Origin: Lachnospiraceae bacterium
GTDB taxonomy: Bacteria; Bacillota; Clostridia; Lachnospirales; Lachnospiraceae
Length of the DNA: 37,082 bases
Direction: 5' to 3'
Assembly (NCBI GenBank): GCA_024682555.1
Contig: JAIKZD010000067.1
Coordinates: forward strand, 1 to 37,082
In this document: positions 1,023 through 24,189 of the stretch, in pieces
Position numbering within the stretch: the first letter of the stretch is position 1
How the letters are laid out: each line of letters opens with the position of its first letter
The notes under the pieces: model-generated
Databases searched by the model: none
What the model was told of the DNA's origin: nothing
Seen by the model: only the letters and a program-made list of their open reading frames with translations
Program-made: the position numbers and the translations under genes

Positions 1023-1062
1023 AAAGATCCTGCATCAGCTTTCTGCAGGATCCAGGATCTTT
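1023..1062 (-). terminator. Hairpin terminator for the cytidylyltransferase operon
   Basis: A perfect 9-bp inverted repeat (GATCCTGCA at 1026-1034, TGCAGGATC at 1044-1052) with a 9-base loop. Read on the minus strand it is followed by TTTATTTTAT, as expected of an intrinsic terminator. The stop codon of the minus-strand gene lies in the loop. A second CAGGATCTTT copy (1053-1062) can pair with 1023-1032 instead, giving an alternative 10-bp stem. On the plus strand there is no clean T-run, so termination of the permease gene is less certain. Confidence 0.6.
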
Positions 1063-1793
1063 AAACATTTTTCCAGATCATTATCCGTAGTCACTTTGAA
1101 ATTGTTTTCATCCCCTTTTATTATCGCAACGTCAAGTCCCGCAATTATGGCAGGTTCCGATGATCCGTTTATCTTAAGGATCTTATCGGGTAGTAAAGCC
1201 TTTACGGCATCGTAATATTTTTCCAGTCTGAATGCCTCGGGAGCCTGGCCTGCATATATTTTTCCCCTGTCAAGAAGAGAAGAGATGCTGACGCCGTCCT
1301 CGGAAAGGTATACCGTGTCCTTCATGGGAAGGGCAGGCATCGCTCCGTCGTGGGATCTGCAGGCATCGATGCACTCGTTAAGAAGCTTTGCGGTTACAAA
1401 AGGTCTGGCCGCATCATGTATTATGACCACGTCACTATCGGTTTCTCCGGACCTGCCCGTTGTACATACCGGATCACCGCCTTTTTTTTCATAATAAGCA
1501 AGAATGCCGGTCAGCCCGTTATAGATCGAAAGCTGTCTGTTTTCACCCGGATCGGAGAACCCGATGAAGCTTTCCGTGAATCTGCCGCCTGTCAAAGCAG
1601 CGGCATCGGATGATATGGCATCACGCCATTTTGCATCCGCAACGATCTGCACATGATCGACTGCCCTACAGCTCAGAACCGCCTGTATGCAATGACTGAT
1701 CATCATGTGTTTTCCTGTTTTGATATATTGCTTGGGGATATCGGAGCTTATCCTTGTTCCGACTCCGCCTGAAAGTATCAGTGCCGTGTTCAT
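1035..1793 (-). CDS. TarI/IspD-family cytidylyltransferase (probable polyol-phosphate cytidylyltransferase)
   Basis: 252 residues with the IspD/TarI fold signature: the nucleotide-binding start ILSGGVGTRI with the PKQY motif (residues ~6-24), the HDAARPFV block in the middle, a QAPEAF segment (the QTP-x-F position of the family), and the C-terminal GDENNFKVTT-D-DL motif. The family transfers CMP from CTP to a polyol phosphate: methylerythritol 4-phosphate for IspD, ribitol 5-phosphate for TarI. It follows a TarJ-like dehydrogenase by 48 bases in what looks like one operon, which favours a CDP-ribitol-type product over isoprenoid synthesis, but this is inference. A GGAGAGGA site sits about 6 bases before the ATG. 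It could still be the cell's IspD; no other copy can be checked here. Confidence 0.82.
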   Translation of the reverse strand: MNTALILSGGVGTRISSDIPKQYIKTGKHMMISHCIQAVLSCRAVDHVQIVADAKWRDAISSDAAALTGGRFTESFIGFSDPGENRQLSIYNGLTGILAYYEKKGGDPVCTTGRSGETDSDVVIIHDAARPFVTAKLLNECIDACRSHDGAMPALPMKDTVYLSEDGVSISSLLDRGKIYAGQAPEAFRLEKYYDAVKALLPDKILKINGSSEPAIIAGLDVAIIKGDENNFKVTTDNDLEKCLKILDPAES

Positions 1794-1841
1794 AAATATG
1801 ATCCTCTCCGGTTATGATCTTTATGGAAAACTTAAAAGTGT

Positions 1842-2894
1842 TCAGCCGTCCATAACACACATGATCTTGATATATTCCTCCGTTTTATCCCTCATTATCA
1901 GGAAACCTTTCTCGATCTCTTCGATGGGGTAACGGTGAGTGATGAGTTCCTCGGGATGTATTAGACCGTTTTTGAGCGAATCCGCAACGTATATCCAGTC
2001 ATCTTTTTCGCCCTTAAAAGAAGAATTCCATGTACCGTGAAGTGTCAGCTGGTTTCTAAGGATCTTCCAGTATGTGTCTCTTTTAAGGGCCATATCAGAG
2101 TGGGGATTGCCCACAAGACACACGCGTCCTCCGGGGGCAGAGTATTCCACCGCCTCACCGTAAGTGACACTGTTTCCGACTACTTCAAAGGATACGTCAA
2201 ATCCAAAGCCTCCGGTTTTTGAATCGATCCATTCCTTTACATTTTCATTTCTCAGGTCGCAGAAATTCTCTTTTTTCAGGCCGAGCTTCAGAGCCTTCTC
2301 TCTTTGAATGTCATGATTTCCGATAACGGAAATGTTTTCATACCCCATGGAGAGAAGATGCATAAGGATGAAAAGTCCTATCGTCCCCGATCCATATATG
2401 GCTATGGATTCATCCCTTCCGATCTCCCCGAACCGGCTGATGGCATGATGGGCAACCGACATGGGTTCAAGCATGGCAGCCTGTTCATAGGTCACATTAT
2501 CCGAAAGTTCTATGAGATTCCATTCGGGAACCCTGACATACTGTGCAAAACCTCCGTCGGATCTTGAACCGAGATAATCGTAATGCTTGCACATCTCATA
2601 TTGCCTGTTGGTGCAGGGAATGCATTCCATGCAGGGAATGAGCGGGAAGATGCCGACCTTTTTTCCAAGCCATTTTTCGGACACATCCGGACCGCATTCC
2701 GCAACCTGCCCGGCAAATTCGTGTCCGATGACAAGCGGCATATTATGGGCTCCGTCTTTATAGACTCTGGGAATGTCGGATCCGCAGATCCCGCAGTTTT
2801 TAACGTTTATAAGGACTTCATGTTCACCCGGAACCGGCCGGTCTTTATCCTGCAGCTGAAATCTGCCTATATCACTTAATATCCAAGCTTTCAT
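1842..2894 (-). CDS. Zinc-dependent polyol-phosphate dehydrogenase (GatD/TarJ-like MDR family)
   Basis: 350 residues with a full medium-chain dehydrogenase layout. Catalytic-zinc region CGICGSD and GHEFAG are near residues 34-65; the structural-zinc lobe has four cysteines spaced C-x2-C-x2-C-x7-C near residues 90-105; the Rossmann segment YGSGTIGLF lies near residue 165. Closest relatives in layout are galactitol-1-phosphate dehydrogenase (GatD) and ribulose-5-phosphate reductase (TarJ). It is first in an operon with a TarI/IspD-like enzyme; TarJ would reduce ribulose 5-phosphate to ribitol 5-phosphate for activation by that partner. I chose the ATG at 2894 (protein begins MKAWIL) because a GGAGA site lies 6 bases upstream; a longer reading to 2915 lacks one. 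Exact substrate is not proven. Confidence 0.82.
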   Translation of the reverse strand: MKAWILSDIGRFQLQDKDRPVPGEHEVLINVKNCGICGSDIPRVYKDGAHNMPLVIGHEFAGQVAECGPDVSEKWLGKKVGIFPLIPCMECIPCTNRQYEMCKHYDYLGSRSDGGFAQYVRVPEWNLIELSDNVTYEQAAMLEPMSVAHHAISRFGEIGRDESIAIYGSGTIGLFILMHLLSMGYENISVIGNHDIQREKALKLGLKKENFCDLRNENVKEWIDSKTGGFGFDVSFEVVGNSVTYGEAVEYSAPGGRVCLVGNPHSDMALKRDTYWKILRNQLTLHGTWNSSFKGEKDDWIYVADSLKNGLIHPEELITHRYPIEEIEKGFLIMRDKTEEYIKIMCVMDG

Positions 2895-2988
2895 CTTTTT
2901 TCTCCGTATGTTCATGTCATAATTCCGGGGCGGAAATCCGTCTGACCGGCACCCAATTTAACAAAAGACTGTTTTGATCCGATATCAT

Positions 2989-2997
2989 ATTATACCA
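2989..2997 (-). promoter_or_regulatory. Extended -10 promoter of the dehydrogenase-cytidylyltransferase operon
   Basis: On the minus strand the sequence reads TGGTATAAT, a perfect TATAAT with a TGn extension. No good -35 box is seen at the usual distance, which is common for extended -10 promoters. It would give a leader of roughly 90 bases before the ATG at 2894. The 271-base divergent gap (2895-3165) contains nothing else that I can recognise apart from the plus-strand candidate promoter. Confidence 0.5.
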
Positions 2998-3104
2998 TAG
3001 TTTTTTATAAAGATGATGCGGCATATAATGAAGGTTTATCCGCTTAAAGTCGGTTTCTGAGACAGATCAGGCACGGAGTAATCATTCCATTTAGGCCTTT
3101 ATTA

Positions 3105-3113
3105 TGCTATCAT
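3105..3113 (+). promoter_or_regulatory. Candidate extended -10 promoter for the NeuB-led run
   Basis: TGCTATCAT, an extended -10-like element about 50 bases before the synthase start, with a poor -35 match. It is the best candidate in the divergent gap for the plus-strand glycan genes. Support is weak. Confidence 0.3.
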
Positions 3114-3165
3114 TAAAAGCGGAAAAAAGAAAAGAGCATTAACTGCTATCAAAGGAGGGATTATC

Positions 3166-3999
3166 ATGCCCGAGCATGTATTTGTTACAGCTGAAATAGG
3201 CATCAATCACAACGGGGACATGGAGATATGTAAGAAGCTCATTGACTGGGCAGTCCTTTCGGGTTGTGATGCCGTAAAGTTCCAGAAAAGAACCATAGAT
3301 AAGGTATATACAAAGGAGTATCTCGACAGCTACAGGGAGAGCCCCTTCGGTACCACGCAGAGAGCCCAGAAGGAAGCCCTTGAGTTTGGAAAAGATGAGT
3401 ATGATGAGATCGACCGTTACTGCAAAGAGAAGAAGATAGAGTGGTATGCGTCTGCGTGGGATACCGACTCCCAGCTTTTCTTAAGACAGTATGATCTCCA
3501 TTACAACAAGGTTGCGAGCGCAATGCTGACCAATATGGAGCTCTTAAACCTTATAGCCGAGGAAAAGAAATACACCTTTATAGCCACCGGAATGAGTGAT
3601 TATGAAGAGATCGATGAGGCGGTGGACGTATTTAAAAAGTATAACTGCCCCTTTGAACTTATGCATTGTAACAGCACCTATCCAATGCCCAAGGAGGATG
3701 CCAACCTAAGACTCATTCCCGCCCTGAGGGAACGGTACGGCTGTAAAGTGGGCTACAGCGGACACGAGACCGGAAGGATCATATCCACATCCGCAGTGGC
3801 TTTGGGTGCTACAAGCATTGAGAGGCATATCACTCTTGATAATACCATGTACGGTTCGGATCAGGCCGCATCCCTCAATGTAAAGGACCTGATGAGACTG
3901 GTTGAGGATATAAGGCTTGTTGAACTGGTGCTCGGCGACGGCAAGAAGGTCCTTACCGAAAAGGAGCTTGCCACCAGAAAGAAGCTGAGAGGCTATTAA
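3166..3999 (+). CDS. neuB: NeuB-family nonulosonate synthase, short form without SAF domain
   Basis: 277 residues matching the TIM-barrel half of sialic-acid-type synthases, which condense phosphoenolpyruvate with a six-carbon amino sugar to give a nine-carbon acid. Visible motifs: AEIGINHNGD (9-18), DAVKFQK (35-41), TGMS (141-144), HCNSTYP (167-173), GYSGHE (196-201), SIERHITLD (217-225) and YGSDQAASL (229-237). Usual NeuB proteins are about 340 residues with a C-terminal SAF (antifreeze-like) domain; this one stops at the point where that domain would begin, with ELATRKKLRGY. The next gene starts at once, so there is no frameshifted remainder. An AAAGGAGGG site precedes the ATG. The neighbouring CMP-sugar synthetase supports the role. 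Sugar substrate (sialic, legionaminic, pseudaminic or other) cannot be told. Confidence 0.85.
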   Translation: MPEHVFVTAEIGINHNGDMEICKKLIDWAVLSGCDAVKFQKRTIDKVYTKEYLDSYRESPFGTTQRAQKEALEFGKDEYDEIDRYCKEKKIEWYASAWDTDSQLFLRQYDLHYNKVASAMLTNMELLNLIAEEKKYTFIATGMSDYEEIDEAVDVFKKYNCPFELMHCNSTYPMPKEDANLRLIPALRERYGCKVGYSGHETGRIISTSAVALGATSIERHITLDNTMYGSDQAASLNVKDLMRLVEDIRLVELVLGDGKKVLTEKELATRKKLRGY

Positions 4000-4073
4000 A
4001 GACCGGCGCCTTAGCGAAAATGTATGACAACAGGACCAATAATATAACCGAAAGGACCGTCAGTTTGGAACAG

Positions 4074-4805
4074 ATGTCTGAAACACGGAAAACGGCAGCC
4101 TTTATCCCGGTAAGGGGCGGCTCAAAATCCATACCGCTGAAAAACATAAAGATGCTCAACGGACATCCGCTCGTTTACTGGACCGTAAAGGCGGCATGCG
4201 AGTGCAGATATATAGATGAAGTCTATGTATCGACCGACAGCGAAGAAATAAAGGATACAGTGGAAGCCTTCAGGGGCCCGGCTGAAACCTCCGGAAACCG
4301 GGGAGAAGATCCGGATGGAATAACCGGCGTTGAAAAGCTCCGGGTGATCGGAAGATCTCCGGAAACCTGTACGGATACGGCATCCACGGAATCTGCAATG
4401 CTTGAATTTGCCGGGAATGTTACGGACTGGGACAATATTGTCCTGATACAGGCTACGTCCCCGTTACTAAGATCGGAAGATCTTGACAGGGGGATGGAGC
4501 TGTTTATGTCGGAGGGTACCGACAGTGTATTTTCGGGAGTCAGGAAAAAGCAGTTTCTGTGGCATGATGACGGCGAATATGCGGCACCGACCTATGATCC
4601 CCTTAACAGGCCGAGAAGGCAGGATTATCAGGGATATATCGTGGAAAACGGCGCTTTTTACATCACGGGAAGAGAGCAGCTGTTTGAAAGCGGGTGCAGG
4701 ATGTCGGGGCGCACAAAGGTCTGTGAGATGAGCGAATCCGCGATCTATGAGATAGATGAACCGGAAGATTTCATTGTCATGGAAGCTATTATGAAAAACA
4801 GGTAA
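4074..4805 (+). CDS. neuA: NeuA-family CMP-nonulosonate cytidylyltransferase
   Basis: About 243 residues beginning MSETRKTAAFIPVRGGSK. The IPVRGGSKSIPLKN motif (P-loop-like CTP site), VYVSTDSEEI, LIQATSPL and the C-terminal YEIDEPEDF block are those of acylneuraminate cytidylyltransferases, which activate the NeuB product with CTP to give a CMP-sugar donor. It follows the NeuB gene closely and is surely co-transcribed. The start is uncertain. The frame is open to an ATG at 4020 with no ribosome site; a TTG at 4065 has AAGGA eight bases before it; the ATG at 4074 gives the usual short N terminus, with GGA four bases upstream. I use 4074. Residues ~70-110 are a somewhat long insert (PAETSGNRGEDPDGIT) relative to compact NeuA proteins. 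Confidence 0.83.
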   Translation: MSETRKTAAFIPVRGGSKSIPLKNIKMLNGHPLVYWTVKAACECRYIDEVYVSTDSEEIKDTVEAFRGPAETSGNRGEDPDGITGVEKLRVIGRSPETCTDTASTESAMLEFAGNVTDWDNIVLIQATSPLLRSEDLDRGMELFMSEGTDSVFSGVRKKQFLWHDDGEYAAPTYDPLNRPRRQDYQGYIVENGAFYITGREQLFESGCRMSGRTKVCEMSESAIYEIDEPEDFIVMEAIMKNR

Positions 4806-4879: not shown

Positions 4880-5545
4880 ATGGAGAAATTCGAACTTTTG
4901 GCATCGATGATGTGTGCCGACTACAGGAATCTTGAAAAAGAGGTCAATGAACTGGACAGCGGAGGGATAGATTCGTTCCATATAGATATCATGGACGGAC
5001 GTTATGTTCCGAACTATGCCATGTCTCTGAATGACATGCGCTGCATAAGATCTCTTACGGAAAAACCCCTGGATGTACATCTGATGGTGGAGCATCCGAA
5101 CAATACGGTTGAACTCTTTATCAAGCCTCTAAAGGAGGGAGATACCATATATATCCATCCCGAGGCGGAATATCATCCTTCCACCACGCTTCAGAAGATA
5201 ATAAATGCGGGTATCACTCCGGGAATAGCAATAAATCCGGGAACCAGCGTTGAAACAATATATGAGATGTTAAGAATAGTGGATAAGGTGCTGGTAATGG
5301 CTGTTAATCCCGGAAATGCCGGACAGATGTTCATGCCTTATGTTCACAAGAAATTTGAAAAGCTTTTTGAACTGAAGGATGAGATGGGCTTTGACATATA
5401 CTGGGACGGCGCCTGCGGTGCCGACAAGATACAGAAATATGCACCCTTAGGAGTCAGGGGTTTTGTACTGGGAACCACACTTCTGTTTGGAAAGAACAGG
5501 CCCTATGGAGAAACCCTGGAAGCTATAAGAAGACTTGAGTTTTGA
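4880..5545 (+). CDS. rpe: Ribulose-phosphate 3-epimerase family protein
   Basis: 221 residues with the Rpe TIM-barrel signatures in order: HIDIMDGRYVPN (~34-45), DVHLMVEHP (~66-74), IYIHPEAEYH (~90-99), GIAINPGTS, VLVMAVNPGNAGQMF and a phosphate-loop end FVLGTTLLFG. The catalytic Asp of the usual VDGG motif is kept in WDGACG, with Trp and Ala/Cys replacing the normal Val and Gly. Rpe interconverts ribulose 5-phosphate and xylulose 5-phosphate. In this locus it may supply ribulose 5-phosphate to the TarJ/TarI-like pair or epimerise a related sugar phosphate (inference). AAGGAGG lies about 12 bases upstream, with a closer GGGG. A nine-codon ORF (start 4850) ends directly at this gene's ATG and could couple translation. 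Confidence 0.8.
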   Translation: MEKFELLASMMCADYRNLEKEVNELDSGGIDSFHIDIMDGRYVPNYAMSLNDMRCIRSLTEKPLDVHLMVEHPNNTVELFIKPLKEGDTIYIHPEAEYHPSTTLQKIINAGITPGIAINPGTSVETIYEMLRIVDKVLVMAVNPGNAGQMFMPYVHKKFEKLFELKDEMGFDIYWDGACGADKIQKYAPLGVRGFVLGTTLLFGKNRPYGETLEAIRRLEF

Positions 5546-5716: not shown

Positions 5717-8700
5717 ATGGAAAACAACCAAAACTCATATTTTATCGCATCGGAAGATGACTACAGGAGGCTGAGCGACAAAAAGATACTGATCGTCATA
5801 GTATCCTATAATTCGGCTCATCTGATGGAGGAAAACATAAAGAGTATAAGGGCAACCCTTCCTGAGGATCTGTATAAGATCGTCGTTGTTGACAATGCCT
5901 CGACGGACGGAGTGACAGACTATCTTGAGAGGCAGGGAGATATTATCCTTATCAAAAATGACACAAACAAGGGCTTTTCTCCTGCCTGTAACCAGGGTGT
6001 AAAGGCGGCTGCCGGGACCGGGTATGAGACAGCGGATGTTTTTTTCCTTAACAATGATACAAGGCTTTGCGATAATTCCCTGTACTATCTGATGAAGGCT
6101 CTTTATGAGGATGAAAGCACAGGAGCCGTCGGAAGCATATCCAATTATGCCGGCAACAGGCAGCAGATGAGCATCGACCTTGACAGGGCCGAGAAATACC
6201 TGGATCTTGCCAGGCTCATAAACATACCTAAAGAGGACTGTACCGATGAGAGGGTAAGACTTTCGGGGTTTGCCATGCTCATAAGGAGAAAGCTTTTTGA
6301 TGATATAGGCGGGTTTGATGAGGACTTTGCCCCGGGCTATTTTGAGGATGACGCCCTTTCCATGGAGATACTGAAAAGGGGTTACCGCCTGAAGGTGGTA
6401 AATAACAGTTTTATCTACCATGCGGGCAGTCAGAGTTTTGCAAAAACAGATGATTACGAGACACTTCTTAACGATCACAGACAGCTGTTTATTAAGAAAT
6501 ATGGCTTTGATATCATTTCCTACGCATACGGAAGTGAAGTCCTGCCAATGAAACTTCCTTATAAACCCGGGGACAGTTTCGGGGTGCTTCAGCTTGGAGC
6601 GGGCTTAGGTGCCGATCTTAAGGCAATCAGAAACAGGTTCAAAAATGCATATACTGCAGGAATTGAATTTGATGAGAATCTCTGCAGAATAGCAGGGCAT
6701 ACGGAGAATATTTTTCCGTCAATAGAGGCTGTAAGGCAGGCGGATTCCGGCTTCAATGCCCTCATCATAGATCCCGACATAATAAAGAACATGTCAAAAG
6801 AGGAAAAGGAAGCCCTTGTGGCTCTTTGCCGCCCGGATGCGGTGCTGATCACAAAAGATCATGCTCTTGAAGATTTTCCCTTTGATAAGGTTAAGCTCAT
6901 CGTATGGGATATGGACGATACCTTCTGGCAGGGGACGCTCAGCGAGGAAAACGTTACGATACCTGCCGGTAATATCGAGCTTGTAAAGGAACTGACCAAT
7001 AACGGGATCATTAACAGCATTTCCTCGAAAAACGATGAGGCACCCGTGATGGAAAAGCTGAAGGAAGCGGGCGTTGACGATCTCTTTGTCTTTAATAATA
7101 TCAACTGGGAGGAGAAGGGACCCCAGCTTGCAAAGAAGATAGAGAGAATGGGTCTCAGGGATGAAAACGTTCTTCTGATAGATGATAATCCGAGGAATCT
7201 TGAGGAGGCCAGATTTGCTTCAAAAAATCTTCTTACCGCAACTCCGGATATCCTGCCCTATCTCATAAATCATGTGCTCAAACTGGGCGGAAGCGACAGG
7301 GAACATAAGAGGCTTTCCCAGTATAAGCTGCTTGAGAAAAAAACAGAGGCAATGGATACTTTTTCCTCAAAGGAAGCTTTTCTCTATGAGAGTAAGATAA
7401 GCGTTGCCGTATGTAAAAACTGTCTTGAGGAGCTTGACAGGATCGCGGAGATGGTTTCAAGGACCAACCAGCTCAACTATACCAAGAACAGGGATGATAA
7501 GGAACTCCTCACAAGGCTCATAACCAATGACTGGAATGACTGCGGATATGTCCGGGTAAGGGATAAGTTCGGTGATTACGGGATCGTCGGATTTTACTGC
7601 TATAACACCAGGGAAAAAAAGATGGAGCATTTCCTTTTTTCCTGCAGGATCCTGGGAATGGGTGTGGAGCAGTATATCTACAATCTTTTGGGGTGTCCGG
7701 ATTTCGAGGTTAAGGATCCGGTGGCTTCCGTTCTCTCAAAGGATGCGGATACGCCATGGATAACCGAGGATACGGGTGCGGAGGTTACCGCTGACAGGGT
7801 GCGGGATAACAGGATAAGGATCCTGTTAAAGGGACCCTGTGACATGAGTGCCATAGAGCCTTATCTCACAGGCGGAAATATCACGACGGAATTCAATTAC
7901 GTCAATGAGTACGGTTTTGTGACCACGGGCCAGAATCATACGGCCCACATAAGACAGAGCCTTGAACTGTCACCGGAAGAGATAGATGAGATAATAAATG
8001 ATGTCCCGTTTATAGTACATGGTGATTTTGAGACCAAGCTCTTTTCGGAGGAATATCATATCATATGTTTAAGCCTTTTACAGGATCTGAGCGCCGGTCT
8101 TTACAGAAACAGGAAAACCGGGACATATATATCCTTCAGCAGCAAAAACTTTGACCTGACATCGTCTGAGTTTAAGCAGAGGTTTATCGACAAGACGGTT
8201 CAGGGACATGATTTTGACTTTACGCAGGAGATAATCGACAGGTTTGCGGAAAACTGGGAGTTTGTCGGCAGCACGCCCCTTGATATGCTTTTGTCAAACC
8301 TTGATTTTATCTATGATCATGTCAAAGGAAATCCCCTGTTTATCCTGATGCTTGGAAGCGAACGCGATTACGAAGGATATAACGAGGAATTTGCGGGGCT
8401 TTGCGATGTCTACAGGGAGATCAATCCCATAATAGAGAGCTTTGCCGCGGATCATGACAGGATAAGGGTCATCAATCCCACGCCCTATATTCACTCACAG
8501 GAAGATTTTGCCGACTGCATCAATCATTTTTCGAGAAACGTTTATTACGGTATCGCAGGGGAGATCTGTGATCGTATCAATGAAGTGGTGGAGAGGCTTG
8601 CAAAGGAAAGAAACACTGCCTCAAAGAACATAGATAAAAAAGCCTATGATGAGTTTGTGAGAGGGCTTTCGGGGAAGAACGGTACGGACGAATATGATGT

Positions 8701-9610
8701 TCTCATAGTTATTACGCCCGATGATTATGACAGGGTAAAAAGAAATTATAAAAATATCGCAAAATACATGCCCGGCAGGAAGGTTATCTTCATCGGAAAC
8801 GATGCTGTCGGAGAAAGAGTTAAAACCGACGCGATATCAGAGAGATTTGATTTTATAAACGAAAACGATATCCTTCCTTTCGCGGAGGTGGAGGCTGTCC
8901 TTAAGGATATCCTTAAGGTCGATGATATCCCCAGGGGAATGACCGGCTGGTATTATCAGCAGTTTCTCAAGATGAGCTATTCCTTCATCTGCAGGGATGA
9001 ATACTACATGACCTGGGACGGGGATACGATTCCCTGTAAGAGTTTTGATATGTTTGCTGAGGACGGGACCCCTTTCTTTGATCTCAAGCAGGAGTACTGT
9101 GAGAATTATTTCATAACTCTTGAGCGCCTGTTTCCTTATATGAAAAAGTGCATCGAAAAATCCTTTATCTCGGAGCATATGCTTATGAAAAAGGATTTCA
9201 TGCAGGAGATGATAAAGGCTATCGAAGGGGACGAAAGACTTGCCGGAAAGACCTATTATGAGAAGATCCTTCGGACCATAGACAGGGATAAACTCAAGGC
9301 CTCAAGTTTTTCGGAATTCGAGACCTACGGCACCTTTGTGAGCATGAAGCATTTCGGAGCCTATAAGCTCAGAAACTGGCATTCCTTCAGGTACTGCGGC
9401 AATTTCTTTGATCCCGATACCATCACGGATGAGGATTATGAGTGGCTTTCACATGATTTTGAAGCGGTATCCTTTGAAAAAAGAGCAAACAGGACTGAGG
9501 AAGGAATGGCTCTGTTTAAGAATCCCAGATACAGGGAGAAGCTTTCCGCAAGGCAGATAGTGGAGGCGATCCAGGAGGAGTCGGAGGGATACAAAGAGGT
9601 CTGGGATTAA
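5717..9610 (+). CDS. Multidomain glycan enzyme: GT2 + methyltransferase-like + FkbH-like + SGNH-like + DUF6492-like
   Basis: About 1297 residues. Residues ~20-270 are a GT2 glycosyltransferase: VSYNS (29-33), VVVDNASTDG (56-65), the NNDT metal/nucleotide motif (112-115) and the FEDDALSMEILKRGY acceptor block (~209). Residues ~285-380 resemble a degenerate SAM methyltransferase (LGAGLG at 293-298, then GIEFDE). Residues ~390-680 are FkbH-like: HAD motif DMDDTFW (398-404), DDNP (489-492) and a C-terminal TNQLNYT ... GIVGFY ... SCRILGMGVE (642-651). Residues ~700-960 look SGNH-hydrolase-like, with GPCD (706-709) at the nucleophile block and an NHFSR histidine (His937). Residues ~990-1297 resemble DUF6492, with GWYYQQFLK and WDGDT (1100-1104). 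Start: ATG 5717 has AGGA eight bases upstream; the frame is open back to a TTG at 5624 without a site. Probably cytoplasmic, assembling and acyl- or glyceryl-decorating a glycan (inference). Confidence 0.85.
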   Translation: MENNQNSYFIASEDDYRRLSDKKILIVIVSYNSAHLMEENIKSIRATLPEDLYKIVVVDNASTDGVTDYLERQGDIILIKNDTNKGFSPACNQGVKAAAGTGYETADVFFLNNDTRLCDNSLYYLMKALYEDESTGAVGSISNYAGNRQQMSIDLDRAEKYLDLARLINIPKEDCTDERVRLSGFAMLIRRKLFDDIGGFDEDFAPGYFEDDALSMEILKRGYRLKVVNNSFIYHAGSQSFAKTDDYETLLNDHRQLFIKKYGFDIISYAYGSEVLPMKLPYKPGDSFGVLQLGAGLGADLKAIRNRFKNAYTAGIEFDENLCRIAGHTENIFPSIEAVRQADSGFNALIIDPDIIKNMSKEEKEALVALCRPDAVLITKDHALEDFPFDKVKLIVWDMDDTFWQGTLSEENVTIPAGNIELVKELTNNGIINSISSKNDEAPVMEKLKEAGVDDLFVFNNINWEEKGPQLAKKIERMGLRDENVLLIDDNPRNLEEARFASKNLLTATPDILPYLINHVLKLGGSDREHKRLSQYKLLEKKTEAMDTFSSKEAFLYESKISVAVCKNCLEELDRIAEMVSRTNQLNYTKNRDDKELLTRLITNDWNDCGYVRVRDKFGDYGIVGFYCYNTREKKMEHFLFSCRILGMGVEQYIYNLLGCPDFEVKDPVASVLSKDADTPWITEDTGAEVTADRVRDNRIRILLKGPCDMSAIEPYLTGGNITTEFNYVNEYGFVTTGQNHTAHIRQSLELSPEEIDEIINDVPFIVHGDFETKLFSEEYHIICLSLLQDLSAGLYRNRKTGTYISFSSKNFDLTSSEFKQRFIDKTVQGHDFDFTQEIIDRFAENWEFVGSTPLDMLLSNLDFIYDHVKGNPLFILMLGSERDYEGYNEEFAGLCDVYREINPIIESFAADHDRIRVINPTPYIHSQEDFADCINHFSRNVYYGIAGEICDRINEVVERLAKERNTASKNIDKKAYDEFVRGLSGKNGTDEYDVLIVITPDDYDRVKRNYKNIAKYMPGRKVIFIGNDAVGERVKTDAISERFDFINENDILPFAEVEAVLKDILKVDDIPRGMTGWYYQQFLKMSYSFICRDEYYMTWDGDTIPCKSFDMFAEDGTPFFDLKQEYCENYFITLERLFPYMKKCIEKSFISEHMLMKKDFMQEMIKAIEGDERLAGKTYYEKILRTIDRDKLKASSFSEFETYGTFVSMKHFGAYKLRNWHSFRYCGNFFDPDTITDEDYEWLSHDFEAVSFEKRANRTEEGMALFKNPRYREKLSARQIVEAIQEESEGYKEVWD

Positions 9611-9653: not shown

Positions 9654-10907
9654 GTGGGACTTAAGGCGGTTGTCTACAGATATAATTCCATATGCGAACC
9701 GGATATAATTGAAGGCTTTGAAAGGATGGGACTTTCGGTCATTGAGATCACCGAGGAGATGCATTTAAAGTCCATCCTTCCCTCGGAGCGGGTAAAGCTT
9801 GTGGACCGGGCGATCAATGAACACTCTCCGCTGTTTGTTTTTTCCGTAAATTTTTTTCCGGATGTTTCGGATATCTGTTCCATACATGGGACATTTTATC
9901 TCTGCCAGACCGTTGACAGCCCTGTAATGACCCTGTTTTCCGGGTCGATAAAGCATGAGACCAACAGGATATTTCTATTCGACAGGGCCCAGTATCTGAG
10001 ATTTAAAAGATATAACGAAAAGAATATTTTTCACCTTCCTCTGGCTGCAAATGTTAAAAGATATGACGGCGTGATCTCAGGAATAAGTGATGGAGACACG
10101 GAGAAATATTCCTGCGATATTTCTTTTGTCGGATCGCTTTATAACGAAAAATGCGAGCTTGACAGGATCTCTCTAAGCGAGGATTCACTCAGGTGCATAA
10201 AGGCTCTTATCGATTCGCAGAAGGGGAATTACGAAGTCAGCTTTATTGAGGAAGCCCTGAGGGATCTTACCCGGGGAGGCGGATGTGAGGACGGGGAATA
10301 TCCGGCCGCAGATAAGAGAGACTTTCGTGCCTTTGTGGATATGATGACGGAGCTTAAGGAAAGTCTTCCCGAAGTCTTCAGGTTTGACAAGCCCGTTGAA
10401 CCCGCGGATCTTTACATTGCGGCACATTATCTCATCGGTTATAAGCTTGCACAGACCGAGAGGATCGAAACCCTGAACGCTCTCGCGGAAAAGTATAGGG
10501 TGACCCTTTTTACCAGAAGCGATACCTCAGGCCTTGAGGGCGTTACCGTAAGAGACGGGGTGTCGACGCATACGGAGATGCCGAAGATATTTCACTTAAG
10601 CAGGATCAATCTCAACATGACCATACGTCCCATAATTACCGGGCTTCCCCTGAGGATCTTTGATATCATGGGCTGCGGCGGTTTCGTGATGAGCAATCAT
10701 CAGGAGGAGATCCCCGAGCTGTTTGAGGTGGGAAGAGAGATCGAGACCTACAAAAGCAGGGAAGAGCTGCTGGATAAATGTGCCTATTACCTTTCTCATG
10801 AGGAGGAGAGGGAGAAGATCGCAAAGCGGGGTTACGAAAAGACGTCGTCAAAATATACCTGGGATCACAGGCTTAAAGAAATGATAAGATTAAGTATCGG
10901 GGGATAG
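9654..10907 (+). CDS. CgeB/DUF3880-type glycosyltransferase
   Basis: 417 residues. The N-terminal half (DIIEGFERMGLSV..., SVNFFPDVSDIC, FLFDRAQYLRFK, IFHLPLAANVKRY) matches the DUF3880 pattern, and CDISFVGSLYNEK opens the central region. The C-terminal half is a GT-B-like donor domain: LNMTIRPIITGLPLRIFDIMGCG, then EIPELFEVGREIETY and a final KYTWDHRL helix, as in Glyco_trans_1_2/CgeB proteins. The start is a GTG at 9654 with AGGA about 11 bases upstream; no in-frame ATG lies earlier. It follows the fusion gene by 43 bases in the same direction and presumably adds one sugar to the same glycan. Donor and acceptor are unknown. Confidence 0.78.
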   Translation: MGLKAVVYRYNSICEPDIIEGFERMGLSVIEITEEMHLKSILPSERVKLVDRAINEHSPLFVFSVNFFPDVSDICSIHGTFYLCQTVDSPVMTLFSGSIKHETNRIFLFDRAQYLRFKRYNEKNIFHLPLAANVKRYDGVISGISDGDTEKYSCDISFVGSLYNEKCELDRISLSEDSLRCIKALIDSQKGNYEVSFIEEALRDLTRGGGCEDGEYPAADKRDFRAFVDMMTELKESLPEVFRFDKPVEPADLYIAAHYLIGYKLAQTERIETLNALAEKYRVTLFTRSDTSGLEGVTVRDGVSTHTEMPKIFHLSRINLNMTIRPIITGLPLRIFDIMGCGGFVMSNHQEEIPELFEVGREIETYKSREELLDKCAYYLSHEEEREKIAKRGYEKTSSKYTWDHRLKEMIRLSIGG

Positions 10908-11014: not shown

Positions 11015-11809
11015 ATGAGCGAATCGATGGACAAGAGATATCTTGATACGGTAAAAAAATGGCGGGAAAGGAATATAACCACCGTGGCGGACCTGGATGC
11101 CGCACTGTCGGATTTCCGCATTCTTTATGCATATCACTCAAACAAGCTGGAGGGAGCGGGACTTGATCTGTTAAGGACCAGAGAGATCTTTGATGATGAA
11201 CACATCAATGATTACAGCGGAAGCCTTATAAAAATCTTTGAGGTACAGAACCAGAAGGACTGCTACGAATACCTGAAATACAGGATCGCGGATAAGGAGC
11301 CCGTCAGCACAAAGCTCATAAAGAAGATTCACGGGATACTGAACCATGACTGTTATGATGAAGCAAGATGGAAAAAGGGCGAGAGACCCGGGGAGTACAA
11401 GGTCAATCATTACGGCGTTGCGGAAAATGCCGGCGTGCCCCCTGAAGATGTTGCGGATGAAATGGAATATCTCTGCGGTGAGATCAATTCCGTCGACACC
11501 GATGATCCCATAAAGCTTTTGAAGGCGGCTTCTTTTTTCCATTGCAACTTCGAATATATACACGGATTTGCGGACGGCAACGGACGTGCCGGAAGGACGC
11601 TTCTGAACTATTACCTTATGATAAACAATATGCCTCCCGCTATTATCTACGAGGAGGACAAGGCAACCTATTACATGGCGCTTGCGGTATTTGACAGGAC
11701 CGAAAACATGGACGGTTTTGTACAGATGATGAAGGAAGTTACGGTAAAGACCTGGGAGAAGCGGGTCAGAAAACCGTCGCTAAGTAATCTTACAAAGCTG
11801 CTTGAGTGA
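11015..11809 (+). CDS. Fic domain protein (predicted AMPylating enzyme)
   Basis: 264 residues. The Fic motif HGFADGNGRAGR is at residues 183-194 and fits HxFx(D/E)GNGRxxR fully, with the catalytic His and the anion-binding GNGR intact. An N-terminal SNKLEG (42-47) fits the S/T-xxx-E-G/N inhibitory helix seen in self-restrained Fic proteins, whose Glu blocks productive ATP binding. Fic enzymes usually transfer AMP from ATP to a hydroxyl side chain. No antitoxin gene is adjacent, in line with the built-in inhibitor. A GGAGGG site lies six bases before the ATG. It sits within the glycan run between a glycosyltransferase and glf, on the same strand; whether it acts on a glycan enzyme or is a passenger is unknown. 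Confidence 0.88.
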   Translation: MSESMDKRYLDTVKKWRERNITTVADLDAALSDFRILYAYHSNKLEGAGLDLLRTREIFDDEHINDYSGSLIKIFEVQNQKDCYEYLKYRIADKEPVSTKLIKKIHGILNHDCYDEARWKKGERPGEYKVNHYGVAENAGVPPEDVADEMEYLCGEINSVDTDDPIKLLKAASFFHCNFEYIHGFADGNGRAGRTLLNYYLMINNMPPAIIYEEDKATYYMALAVFDRTENMDGFVQMMKEVTVKTWEKRVRKPSLSNLTKLLE

Positions 11810-16372: not shown

Positions 16373-17680
16373 ATGGCAGATTTATCTGTATTAAGCAGCA
16401 TATACAACCAGATCAATACCACGTACAATCCTATGCGTACGAACACTAAGTACGATACGCATAAGAAGAGTGAGCTGCGTGGTGTTTATAATTCCATCGT
16501 AGAAAAAAGCAAAGATTCCCCTCTGTTCATACTGGATGACAGCGAAGAGACAAAGTCTTATGTTGTAAGCCTTAAGGAAGATGCGCGTAATCTTAAGAAT
16601 ACCATTTCCTCTCTTTCGCAGTCGGAAACCGAGGATCTTCTTTCCAAGAAGACCGTTTCCTCAAGTGATGAGAGCAAGGTTCTTGCCAATTATCTTGGCG
16701 GAAGCTATAAGGGTGAAGACGTAAGTGAGCTTGAGCTTTCCGTCAAACAGCTTGCATCCGAGCAGGAGAATACCGGTAAGTACCTGCCTTCCTCGGAAAA
16801 GATCGGTCTTGAGCCGGATACCTATTCCTTTGATATCCACTCAAGAGACATGGATTACGAGTTCCAGTTTAACATCGGCGAGAATGATTCAAACAAAACC
16901 ATTCAGGACAAGCTTGCAAGGCTTATCTCAAGATCGAATATCGGTGTCCGTGCGGAGGTCGTTTCCGACGGATCCGGAAACACAGCCTTAAAGCTTACTT
17001 CCAACGATACCGGTTACAAGAATGACACCCGGACTTCCTTCAATGTATCCGATAACCGGACCAGTAAGGCAAGCGGCGTTGTTGATTACCTCGGACTTTC
17101 CAATATTTCCAGGGCTCCGGAGAATGCGGAATTTGTTATAAACGGCATTGAGAGAAGTGCCACCTCCAATCACTTTACCGTTGACAGGATGTATGACCTG
17201 ACTCTCGTTGCTCCCACCGCAGAGGATGAAAAGGTAACGGTGGGCTTCAAGACGGATACCGAATCCCTGACCGAAAACGTTACAAAACTTATCGACGGAT
17301 ATAATACCTTTATTGAAAAGACAAAGAGTTATGTGGAGAATCAGCCTCAGGCCAAGGCGCTTCTCAATGAAATGAGGCTCCTTACCACAAGGTTCGGAAA
17401 AGAGCTTGAGGACATCGGCGTGGGTCTTTCTACGGACGGACTGATCGCCCTTGACAATGAAAAGCTTAAAAAGACGGTGGAATCACCTGATGCCGTTGAT
17501 AAGCTTAAGACCATCAAGGATTTCGCCAATTCGGTACTTAAAAAGACTTCGGAGGTTGCTCTTGATCCGATGCAGTATACAAGGAGAAAGGTTGTGGAGT
17601 ACAAGAATCCGGGCCATAATTTCTCCGCTCCCTATGCCGCCAGCAATTATTCGGGCATGATGTTCTCGGGATACTGCTAA
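16373..17680 (+). CDS. FliD-like flagellar hook-associated/capping protein
   Basis: 435 residues. The C-terminal two thirds show FliD-like features: a domain of the form AEFVINGIERSATSNHFTVDRMYDLTLVA, then VTVGFKTDTESLTENVTKLIDGYNTFIEKTKSYV, and near the end a helix with ELEDIGVGLSTDGLIALDNEKLKK, the usual FliD closing motif. FliD caps the growing filament and folds flagellin. The N terminus (SIYNQINTTYNPMRTNTKYDTHKKSELRGVYNSIV) lacks the standard FliD opening with GLDT, so it may be a lineage-specific variant or paralogue. It is unlinked to other flagellar structural genes in this window. A strong AAAGGAGGGG site lies 5-6 bases upstream. Confident that it is FliD-related, less so that it is the sole cap protein. 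Confidence 0.65.
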   Translation: MADLSVLSSIYNQINTTYNPMRTNTKYDTHKKSELRGVYNSIVEKSKDSPLFILDDSEETKSYVVSLKEDARNLKNTISSLSQSETEDLLSKKTVSSSDESKVLANYLGGSYKGEDVSELELSVKQLASEQENTGKYLPSSEKIGLEPDTYSFDIHSRDMDYEFQFNIGENDSNKTIQDKLARLISRSNIGVRAEVVSDGSGNTALKLTSNDTGYKNDTRTSFNVSDNRTSKASGVVDYLGLSNISRAPENAEFVINGIERSATSNHFTVDRMYDLTLVAPTAEDEKVTVGFKTDTESLTENVTKLIDGYNTFIEKTKSYVENQPQAKALLNEMRLLTTRFGKELEDIGVGLSTDGLIALDNEKLKKTVESPDAVDKLKTIKDFANSVLKKTSEVALDPMQYTRRKVVEYKNPGHNFSAPYAASNYSGMMFSGYC

Positions 17681-22653: not shown

Positions 22654-24189
22654 ATGACAGCACCTGAAAAAACAGTATCTGGAAAAAACAGGTCAAAACT
22701 GAATACTCTGTATGTCGCTGTGGTCGTGGCAGTTTTATTTGCAGGCTGCTCAGAAAAGCCTGATACTGCGGCGGCGCCTGCTTTTGTTGTGGAAAAAAAT
22801 GATCGGGAAATGTCTGAAGATCCGGTCAAGGATCCGGAAGCACAGGCCGGTATCGGAACCATAACCGAAAACGGCGGTCAGACGGATGAAGAACCTGTGA
22901 TCGTCATGAATACCGAGGGCGACATTACATATGAACCCTTTGATATGTCCGTTTATGAAGAAGACGAATATGTCAGAGATTTTGATGCGAGAGTCTTCTC
23001 TATGGAGACGGCATCAAAGGAAGAAGCTGTTTTTACCTTCGTAGGGGATATCTCCTTTGCCGAGGGCTACAGTATAATGACCAAGCTGCGGGACGTGGGA
23101 CATGATCTGAGCCAGGTGATAAGGCCAGAGGTAATGTCCGCTTTAAGGGACAGCGATGTTTTTATGGCAAACAATGAGTTCCCGTACAGTGACAGGGGTA
23201 CACCTAAGGCCGGGAAGACTTTCACATTCAGGGCTAAGCCCGAAAGCGTAAAGTATCTTACGGAGATGGGGGTTGATATAGTATCCCTTGCCAATAATCA
23301 TGCCTTTGATTACGGTGAGGAGGCTCTTGTTGATTCCCTCGATATTTTAAGGAATGCGGATATTCCGGTGGTCGGTGCGGGAAAAAACATTTCCGAAGCC
23401 ATGCAGCCGGTATATTTTAAGGTAAATAAAAAGACGGTGGCCATTACTTCGGCCACCCAGATCGAAAGGACACCGAATCCCGAAAGCAGGGAGGCAACCG
23501 AAACAAGCGCCGGCGTATTGAGGACCCTCGATCCTTCAAAGATGGTGCAGTGCATAAAGACAGCTGAGGAGAATGCCGATTTTGTGATAGTCTTTGTACA
23601 CTGGGGCTCGGAGAATACCGACCTTGTGGAAGATTCCCAGAGAAAGCTTGCAAAGGCCTATGTTGAGGCCGGCGCGGACCTTATTGTGGGAGGTCATCCT
23701 CATTGTCTGCAGGGTGCGGACTATGTTGACGGAGTTCCCGTTTTTTACAGTCTCGGGAATTTCTGGTTCAATTCAAGAAGGGTGGAAACGGGATATTTAA
23801 AGCTGACCCTTGATACCACGGGAGACGGCTGTTCCATAAAGGAACTTAAGTTTGTGCCCTGCCTTCAGAACGGCTGTGTAACAAGACTGTCGGAGGGAGA
23901 GGAAGGACAGAAGATCCTTAAGTATCTGCAGGGTGTGTCCGATCATGCGCTGATATCGGAAGATGGTGTGATAACCTATTCGGAAGAGAATCACAATATA
24001 GAGAACGGTCAGAACACTTCGCCCTCCAAGGCCTATATCAGAAAGGATACCGAGGAAGAGGAAGCGGCGGATCCGGACCTGGAAGCACTTTTTCAGCTAA
24101 TGCAGCAGCAGAATCCGAATCCGGACGCCATGCCTGCGGAAACCGAAGCATCCGCCCCGCCGGATGAAACAGAAACGCCCGCGGAATAA
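22654..24189 (+). CDS. CapA-family (PGA_cap) lipoprotein
   Basis: 511 residues. The N-terminal helix AVVVAVLFAGC ends in a lipobox-like FAGC (Cys32), so it is probably a lipoprotein on the outer face. A low-complexity acidic linker runs to ~125. The CapA fold of the metallophosphoesterase superfamily follows: FTFVGDISFAEGY (metal Asp), MANNEFPYSDRG, SLANNHAFDYG, VVFVHWGSENTD and LIVGGHPHCLQ, all intact. The last ~70 residues are acidic and Pro/Gln-rich. CapA proteins act in poly-gamma-glutamate or other wall and capsule polymer metabolism; the exact reaction is unsettled. The ribosome site before the ATG is weak. It sits between rplA and the rplJ leader, an unusual place. Confidence 0.85.
   Translation: MTAPEKTVSGKNRSKLNTLYVAVVVAVLFAGCSEKPDTAAAPAFVVEKNDREMSEDPVKDPEAQAGIGTITENGGQTDEEPVIVMNTEGDITYEPFDMSVYEEDEYVRDFDARVFSMETASKEEAVFTFVGDISFAEGYSIMTKLRDVGHDLSQVIRPEVMSALRDSDVFMANNEFPYSDRGTPKAGKTFTFRAKPESVKYLTEMGVDIVSLANNHAFDYGEEALVDSLDILRNADIPVVGAGKNISEAMQPVYFKVNKKTVAITSATQIERTPNPESREATETSAGVLRTLDPSKMVQCIKTAEENADFVIVFVHWGSENTDLVEDSQRKLAKAYVEAGADLIVGGHPHCLQGADYVDGVPVFYSLGNFWFNSRRVETGYLKLTLDTTGDGCSIKELKFVPCLQNGCVTRLSEGEEGQKILKYLQGVSDHALISEDGVITYSEENHNIENGQNTSPSKAYIRKDTEEEEAADPDLEALFQLMQQQNPNPDAMPAETEASAPPDETETPAE

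Follow-up and report, generated by a model that had tools for sequence, protein, structure and literature searches.

A five-module protein with an FkbH–SGNH unit in a Lachnospiraceae bacterium and its possible part in flagellin glycan decoration

The window, as the whole stretch of 37,082 nucleotides analysed here is called, is contig JAIKZD010000067.1 (positions 1 to 37,082; assembly GCA_024682555.1) of a Lachnospiraceae bacterium. Its forward strand carries a single unbroken frame that starts at a TTG (5624) or an ATG (5717) and ends at 9610, giving a protein of 1328 or 1297 amino acids. The ATG is the more likely start, and an AGGA is seen by eye about 8 bases 5′ of it; residues are numbered from the TTG throughout. 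The protein is composed, in this order, of a GT2 glycosyltransferase, a methyltransferase-like segment, an FkbH unit with HAD and GNAT-like parts, an SGNH-fold domain and a DUF6492 module (Table 1). An original prediction, made from the DNA letters, had described one continuous frame with five modules of these kinds; the frame is real, and profiles together with AlphaFold fold searches bear out all five assignments. Residues 45–997 recur, whole or in large parts, at approximately 40–74% identity in other Lachnospiraceae, and a chance assembly of the modules is therefore unlikely. The protein is one member of a module-shuffling family; its enzyme kinds are known, and its FkbH–SGNH(Cys) unit is unusual.

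Table 1. Features of the window (positions of the whole stretch)
Feature	Position	Strand	Remarks
Five-module protein	5717..9610	+	ATG start; in-frame TTG 5624 upstream possible
GT2 glycosyltransferase module, residues 51–290	5774..6493	+	PF00535 E 7.5e-19; conserved in relatives
Class I methyltransferase-like short segment, residues ~300–415	6521..6868	+	Weak profile matches
FkbH unit, shortened at the C-terminus: HAD-IIIC (D429, D431) and GNAT-like part with SCR (C674)	6878..7789	+	TIGR01686; canonical FkbH alignment
SGNH-fold domain, residues 726–1000, Cys739 where the nucleophile is expected and His968 where block V is	7799..8623	+	Alignment, AlphaFold model, fold search
DUF6492 module, residues 1016–1328, WDGDT (D1132, D1134)	8669..9607	+	PF20102 E 2.6e-7; model and fold search
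CgeB/DUF3880-type glycosyltransferase, directly downstream	9654..10907	+	DUF3880 and Glyco_trans_1_2
Ribulose-phosphate 3-epimerase family gene, directly upstream	4880..5545	+	Profile match; also near core in L060, L061, L064
NeuB-family synthase and cytidine monophosphate (CMP)-sugar cytidylyltransferase genes	3166..4805	+	Profile matches
IspD-family cytidylyltransferase and zinc alcohol dehydrogenase	1035..2915	-	Profile matches; both recur in L060
FliD (flagellar cap) C-terminal family gene	16373..17680	+	PF07195 2.5e-9; same locus

The modules of the protein

The FkbH unit is recognized by TIGR01686 over residues 423–689 (model 3–285 of 323) with 140.3 bits, slightly below the curated cut-off of 146.65, while the HAD-IIIC profile TIGR01681 scores 46.4 bits, above its cut-off. 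Among nine relatives with a C-terminal SGNH domain that were scanned, five pass the TIGR01686 cut-off (L042, L046, L047, L075, L093) and four fail it (L034, L044, L045, L092). Ten canonical loci bearing FkbH_N were taken for comparison, and the nine with a usable frame were aligned against the window. The motifs DxDxTxW, S(K/N)N, W..K, DD, NQ(F/L)N and SCR are shared with all nine, and GD.G, present in eight of them, is also kept. The HAD catalytic residues are kept as well; the motifs that we take to mark FkbH are NQxN, GD.G and SCR, drawn in part from this alignment.

The SGNH-fold domain escapes Pfam, which finds no SGNH match in the window protein or in its isolated segment. Its AlphaFold model (pLDDT 89.7) matches GDSL-type esterases; esterases, many of the acetyl kind, predominate among the fold matches, which include the O-acetyltransferase PatB, and BF1531 (3slr) is one of many with a similar Z. 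A Cys occupies the block I nucleophile position, in place of Ser, in 16 of 16 aligned SGNH rows, and the block V His is present in all 16. When 19 SGNH members were scanned with Pfam, PF19040 appeared in two (best E 0.032) and other families in one member each, while a profile of the domain gave just two weak matches, to other proteins, among PDB sequences. Compared with SGNH/GDSL acyltransferases such as PatB, the window family has Cys for Ser, a block III that reads GSE and a lost spacing of the block V Asp (by eye). The original prediction of FkbH and SGNH parts in the middle of the chain thus stands, through the near-cut-off TIGR01686 match with its FkbH motifs and through the modelled fold.

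The window unit departs from canonical FkbH in several respects. In the canonical form (TIGR01686) an SGNH-like part precedes the HAD and GNAT parts, whereas in the window unit the SGNH domain follows them; the canonical FkbH_N nucleophile position holds Ser in six and Cys in two of the eight loci readable out of ten. A permutation of canonical FkbH_N into the C-terminal SGNH domain was considered and is not claimed, the homology probability given by hhalign being 1.8%. Unlike canonical FkbH_N-HAD-GNAT proteins that work with an acyl carrier protein (ACP), the window unit lacks the GNAT end, is fused to glycosyltransferases and has no ACP neighbour where one was searched for. The same genome also holds an ordinary FkbH copy (G000:C86; L068 661–2677), covering TIGR01686 model 3–320 with 271.6 bits, with FkbH_N in front, HAD-GNAT and an ACP gene directly behind. 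A phmmer search with two ACPs of the own genome, run on open reading frames of at least 55 amino acids in the window, L033–L048 and L058–L069 and leaving L075–L078 and L092–L093 aside, matched only the ACP loci themselves, so that no ACP gene was found beside FkbH–SGNH. Similarly, among the PF00550 matches listed, none lies on the core contig in any of the 11 genomes with a known core contig (13 further genomes are unmapped). One genome therefore contrasts an FkbH and ACP pair at C86 with a window unit beside which no ACP was found.

Both ends of the chain are transferase-like, as had been proposed. At the N-terminus, PF00535 matches residues 57–227 with 68.7 bits against a cut-off of 23.3. 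At the C-terminus, PF20102 matches residues 1033–1289 with 30.5 bits against 22.9, and the model predicts a GT-A-type transferase fold, closest to sugar-1-phosphotransferases of the GlcNAc-1-phosphotransferase (GNPTAB)/CpsY kind. The likeness is one of fold alone, with 8–11% identity and a root-mean-square deviation of 3.8–5.2, and the DUF6492 profile matched no solved structure in the PDB by sequence at E up to 1. The GNPTAB/CpsY group is presumably the one called Stealth. A sugar-phosphotransferase activity of DUF6492 is suggested by the modelled fold.

The segment between GT2 and FkbH was earlier called a degenerate stretch resembling an S-adenosylmethionine-binding domain. The methyltransferase likeness holds, in a segment of about 115 residues that is optional among relatives. 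It scores only E 0.16 within the whole protein; across 15 aligned segments (window included) the best family match is Methyltransf_23 at 1.6e-4, Methyltransf_25 is matched by 10 of the 15 at E up to 1, and a profile of the aligned segments finds solved phosphoethanolamine methyltransferases at 8.8e-4. It is unscored in 3 of 18 GT2-containing records (L045, L075, L078), and a longer methyltransferase follows GT2 in L018. Because the segment is short and unscored in those three records, we read it as a probable non-catalytic remnant or spacer.

Module exchange among relatives

Relatives were counted as distinct records in which phmmer scored both FkbH and SGNH, duplicates (L007, L058, L033) being counted once. 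L047 (SGNH unscored), L092 and L093 (added later) and L048 and L080 (incomplete) are left out of the resulting 25. SGNH lies directly after FkbH in all 25, most of which were found with a query containing both domains. A profile of SGNH alone found seven other genomes, and FkbH directly precedes SGNH in six of them; the seventh (L080) is a 217-amino-acid frame without FkbH. GT2 stands before FkbH–SGNH in 18 of the 25 records, with the methyltransferase-like segment between them in 15 of those 18. FkbH–SGNH relatives occur in both Bacillota and Pseudomonadota.

The partners attached to this core vary. DUF6492 is C-terminal in the window alone and N-terminal in eight relatives (L034, L035, L036, L037, L043, L045, L075, L078). 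Three records carry a LicD-type domain at the C-terminus (L033, L008, L009; Pfam LicD was tested on L033), and the chain of L075 ends in an MptE-like/Maf-type domain (PF01973 1.5e-28). The original prediction knew of no described enzyme with this domain order. Among the scored records the exact order is confined to the window, but the GT2-(methyltransferase)-FkbH-SGNH core is conserved as a Lachnospiraceae family and takes several other partners. Literature searches for FkbH with SGNH, for HAD-IIIC with glycosyltransferase and for DUF6492 returned no paper, and no description of a GT2/FkbH/SGNH/DUF6492 architecture was found in the literature searched.

In a tree of DUF6492, the window copy groups with four same-genus copies that are unfused to any core protein (five rows, support 100/97), and all N-terminal fusions fall in a neighbouring group of 14 rows (100/98) together with five unfused copies. 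The two kinds of fusion thus have separate origins. The counterpart of the window's DUF6492 in G017 and G018 is a gene of its own immediately behind the core gene, and for this reason the window protein looks like a later fusion, one that would have formed once the LicD part and the next gene's leader had been lost. The C-terminal SGNH–DUF6492 join is seen once, in the window, and an assembly error may lie at this point.

Within the window's genus, 7 of 37 genomes have full-core matches, and the SGNH profile is found in 5 of 397 genomes drawn from the family and 4 of 391 from the class, the window's own genome being counted in each. Partial matches to the query occur in 312 records of a plasmid collection, none of which covers 80% of the query in one place. 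The distribution is patchy, a usual pattern for surface-glycan genes.

Further arrangements were noted among the relatives. In two genomes (L033 4999–6000 and L010 4336–5376) the core carries an extra N-terminal module of 330 residues, for which Pfam gives no match at E 0.01. A second protein in the L035 locus (2402–4450) has the order DUF6492-GT2-methyltransferase and is without FkbH–SGNH. In L044 (8955–13217), a fusion of phosphoenolpyruvate mutase and cytidylyltransferase and a thiamine pyrophosphate enzyme, by eye like phosphonopyruvate decarboxylase, adjoin the FkbH–SGNH gene, and this gene content suggests that the product of the locus bears a phosphonate. On a Komagataeibacter plasmid (L092 7669–10755), FkbH–SGNH is preceded by a DUF1796-annotated N-terminus and a TPR-like stretch; genes for GT61 and other glycosyltransferases follow it. 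In Pseudoalteromonas (L047), the gene adjoins aconitase-family and CmlA-type hydroxylase genes, a setting that resembles a natural-product cluster.

Flagellar setting and proposed function

Flagellar genes are frequent neighbours of the GT2-containing core. A structural or assembly gene of the flagellum was recognized by Pfam or phmmer in 11 of 18 such stretches, a raw count without a chance rate, taken from stretches of unequal length with few flagellar genes as queries. FliD is found in the window, L058 and L059; FlgM, FlgN or FlgK in L061 and L064 (Pfam on L064, L061 by cluster); flagellin in L034 (Pfam) and in L036, L037 and L039 (phmmer). Flagellin, FliS and FliD stand beside the core in L075, and the L078 stretch has FlgK and FliW. 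By the same count, a flagellar gene accompanies FkbH–SGNH without GT2 in one of eight stretches (L042, flagellin). An MptE-like gene is next to the core in L036, and the MptE-like domain of L075 also partly matches PseD, a protein of flagellin modification, at 31.8 bits (E 6e-8), far below the cut-off. A flagellar link of the enzyme family is fairly well supported by these neighbourhoods, and the earlier idea of a chain that builds and decorates a sugar would fit them.

A passage of PMC13317340, citing Kalmokoff 2000, lists Butyrivibrio with the genera whose flagella are O-glycosylated. In Campylobacter jejuni, flagellin bears di-O-methylglyceroyl pseudaminic acid according to an excerpt of PMC3068675, and an excerpt of PMC7099621 places an fkbH-domain gene, cj1302, in the flagellar glycosylation locus; cj1302 is presumably linked to the glyceroyl group. 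C. jejuni thus resembles the present case in two points: its flagellin glycosylation locus includes an fkbH-domain gene, and the nonulosonate on its flagellin is substituted with glyceroyl. It differs in being another organism and in having separate genes. As for FkbH chemistry, part of PMC7489565 describes FkbH-like enzymes as "likely" loading glyceryl from 1,3-bisphosphoglycerate on ACP, and part of PMC10099666 reports that glyceryl loading is proposed for an assembly-line FkbH domain and that the vioprolide domain was shown to activate D-3-phosphoglycerate. From the glyceryl-loading precedents, the C. jejuni glyceroyl flagellin with its fkbH gene, and the contrast between the C86 pair and a window unit with no ACP found, we infer that FkbH–SGNH acylates a flagellar glycan and that the SGNH Cys replaces a separate carrier.

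The window protein would then combine several active sites in one enzyme, presumably cytoplasmic, and belong to a flagellin glycosylation island. GT2 would add a sugar to a growing glycan, probably flagellin-bound. FkbH–SGNH would form an acyl thioester, most likely of glyceryl from 1,3-bisphosphoglycerate, the acyl group would be relayed from Cys674 to Cys739, and the SGNH cysteine would hand it to the glycan at a hydroxyl or an amino group. The DUF6492 end may transfer a second sugar, perhaps in sugar-phosphate form, with the methyltransferase-like segment taking no catalytic part. We give about even chances to a modular enzyme of flagellin-glycan assembly and decoration whose FkbH–SGNH unit delivers a glyceryl-type acyl group to the glycan with no dedicated carrier in between. 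A bolder proposal is tentative: that FkbH–SGNH(Cys) is a carrier-free acyltransferase and a swappable glycan-decoration cartridge, with glyceryl passing from 1,3-bisphosphoglycerate to the FkbH Cys, the SGNH Cys and finally the sugar just added by the fused GT2.

Several observations weigh against glyceryl decoration of flagellin. Neither a cap piece nor the PTAKN...FY..MGF terminus, both seen in canonical FkbH, is present in the window FkbH, and the match ends at model 282–286 of 323 in all nine C-terminal-SGNH relatives scanned (285 in the window); with its end truncated, the substrate may differ from that of canonical FkbH. The block V Asp of the SGNH domain is mostly at -4 from the His instead of -3 (by eye). 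Seven of the 18 GT2-containing stretches have no flagellar match (L060, L063, L035, L040, L041, L043, L045), with the few query genes and unequal lengths already mentioned. No flagellar match accompanies the GT2-less FkbH–SGNH of L044, L046, L047, L076, L077, L092 and L093, and the own assembly, 95.7% complete, has no MptE-like/Maf-type match.

Alternatively, the HAD part could be a sugar-phosphate or similar phosphatase and the GNAT and SGNH parts could remove or move acetyl, making an enzyme of glycan O-acetylation or trimming with no glyceryl chemistry. HAD-IIIC does match as a phosphatase family, the SGNH part has its fold matches mainly among esterases, many of the acetyl kind, and among PatB-type acetyltransferases, and the FkbH likeness is shortened at the acyl end. 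Nevertheless, the FkbH motifs outside HAD are retained and the FkbH cut-off is passed by five of the nine relatives scanned, and we hold this alternative to be rather improbable. The target could also be a capsule or exopolysaccharide, the flagellar neighbours being coincidental. Such a target would suit the unit's company of GT61 and other glycosyltransferase genes in Komagataeibacter and of GT2 and LicD-type genes in L046, as well as the seven stretches without a flagellar match; it is made unlikely by the 11 stretches that have flagellar genes and by the fusion of one chain (L075) to an MptE-like/Maf-type domain. The least probable explanation, in our judgement a distinctly unlikely one, is that the chain consists of neighbouring genes joined by a recent deletion or misassembly and has no joint function. 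The C-terminal join does look recent, since DUF6492 is separate behind the core in G017 and G018 and the window copy groups with those copies. Linkage recurs, however, as the N-terminal DUF6492 fusions of eight relatives sit elsewhere in the tree, and the order GT2-FkbH-SGNH is kept in 18 records.

If glyceryl decoration of a flagellin glycan is the function, a building-block loader of polyketide style would be tied to flagellar sugar chemistry in gut Lachnospiraceae, and modules would be exchanged among flagellin glycan enzymes. DUF6492 and a group of thiol SGNH domains would gain a testable role. The two FkbH architectures in one genome offer a natural comparison, in which use of a carrier is directly testable.

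Neighbouring genes

A relative of the CgeB/DUF3880-type glycosyltransferase downstream of the window gene is found in 13 of the 18 GT2-containing stretches, window included. The IspD-family cytidylyltransferase and zinc alcohol dehydrogenase form a pair that we take to resemble the synthesis of cytidine diphosphate (CDP)-pentitol. LicD-type enzymes can use CDP-pentitol. As a lead only, these two genes and the epimerase gene near the core may point to CDP-pentitol. The NeuB-family protein (3166–3999, 277 amino acids) covers model 1–274 of 329 and is without the usual C-terminal part. A Fic/DOC family gene lies within the glycan locus at 11015–11809, and a PGA_cap (capsule synthesis protein) gene at 22654–24189 lies between the genes for ribosomal proteins L1 and L10.

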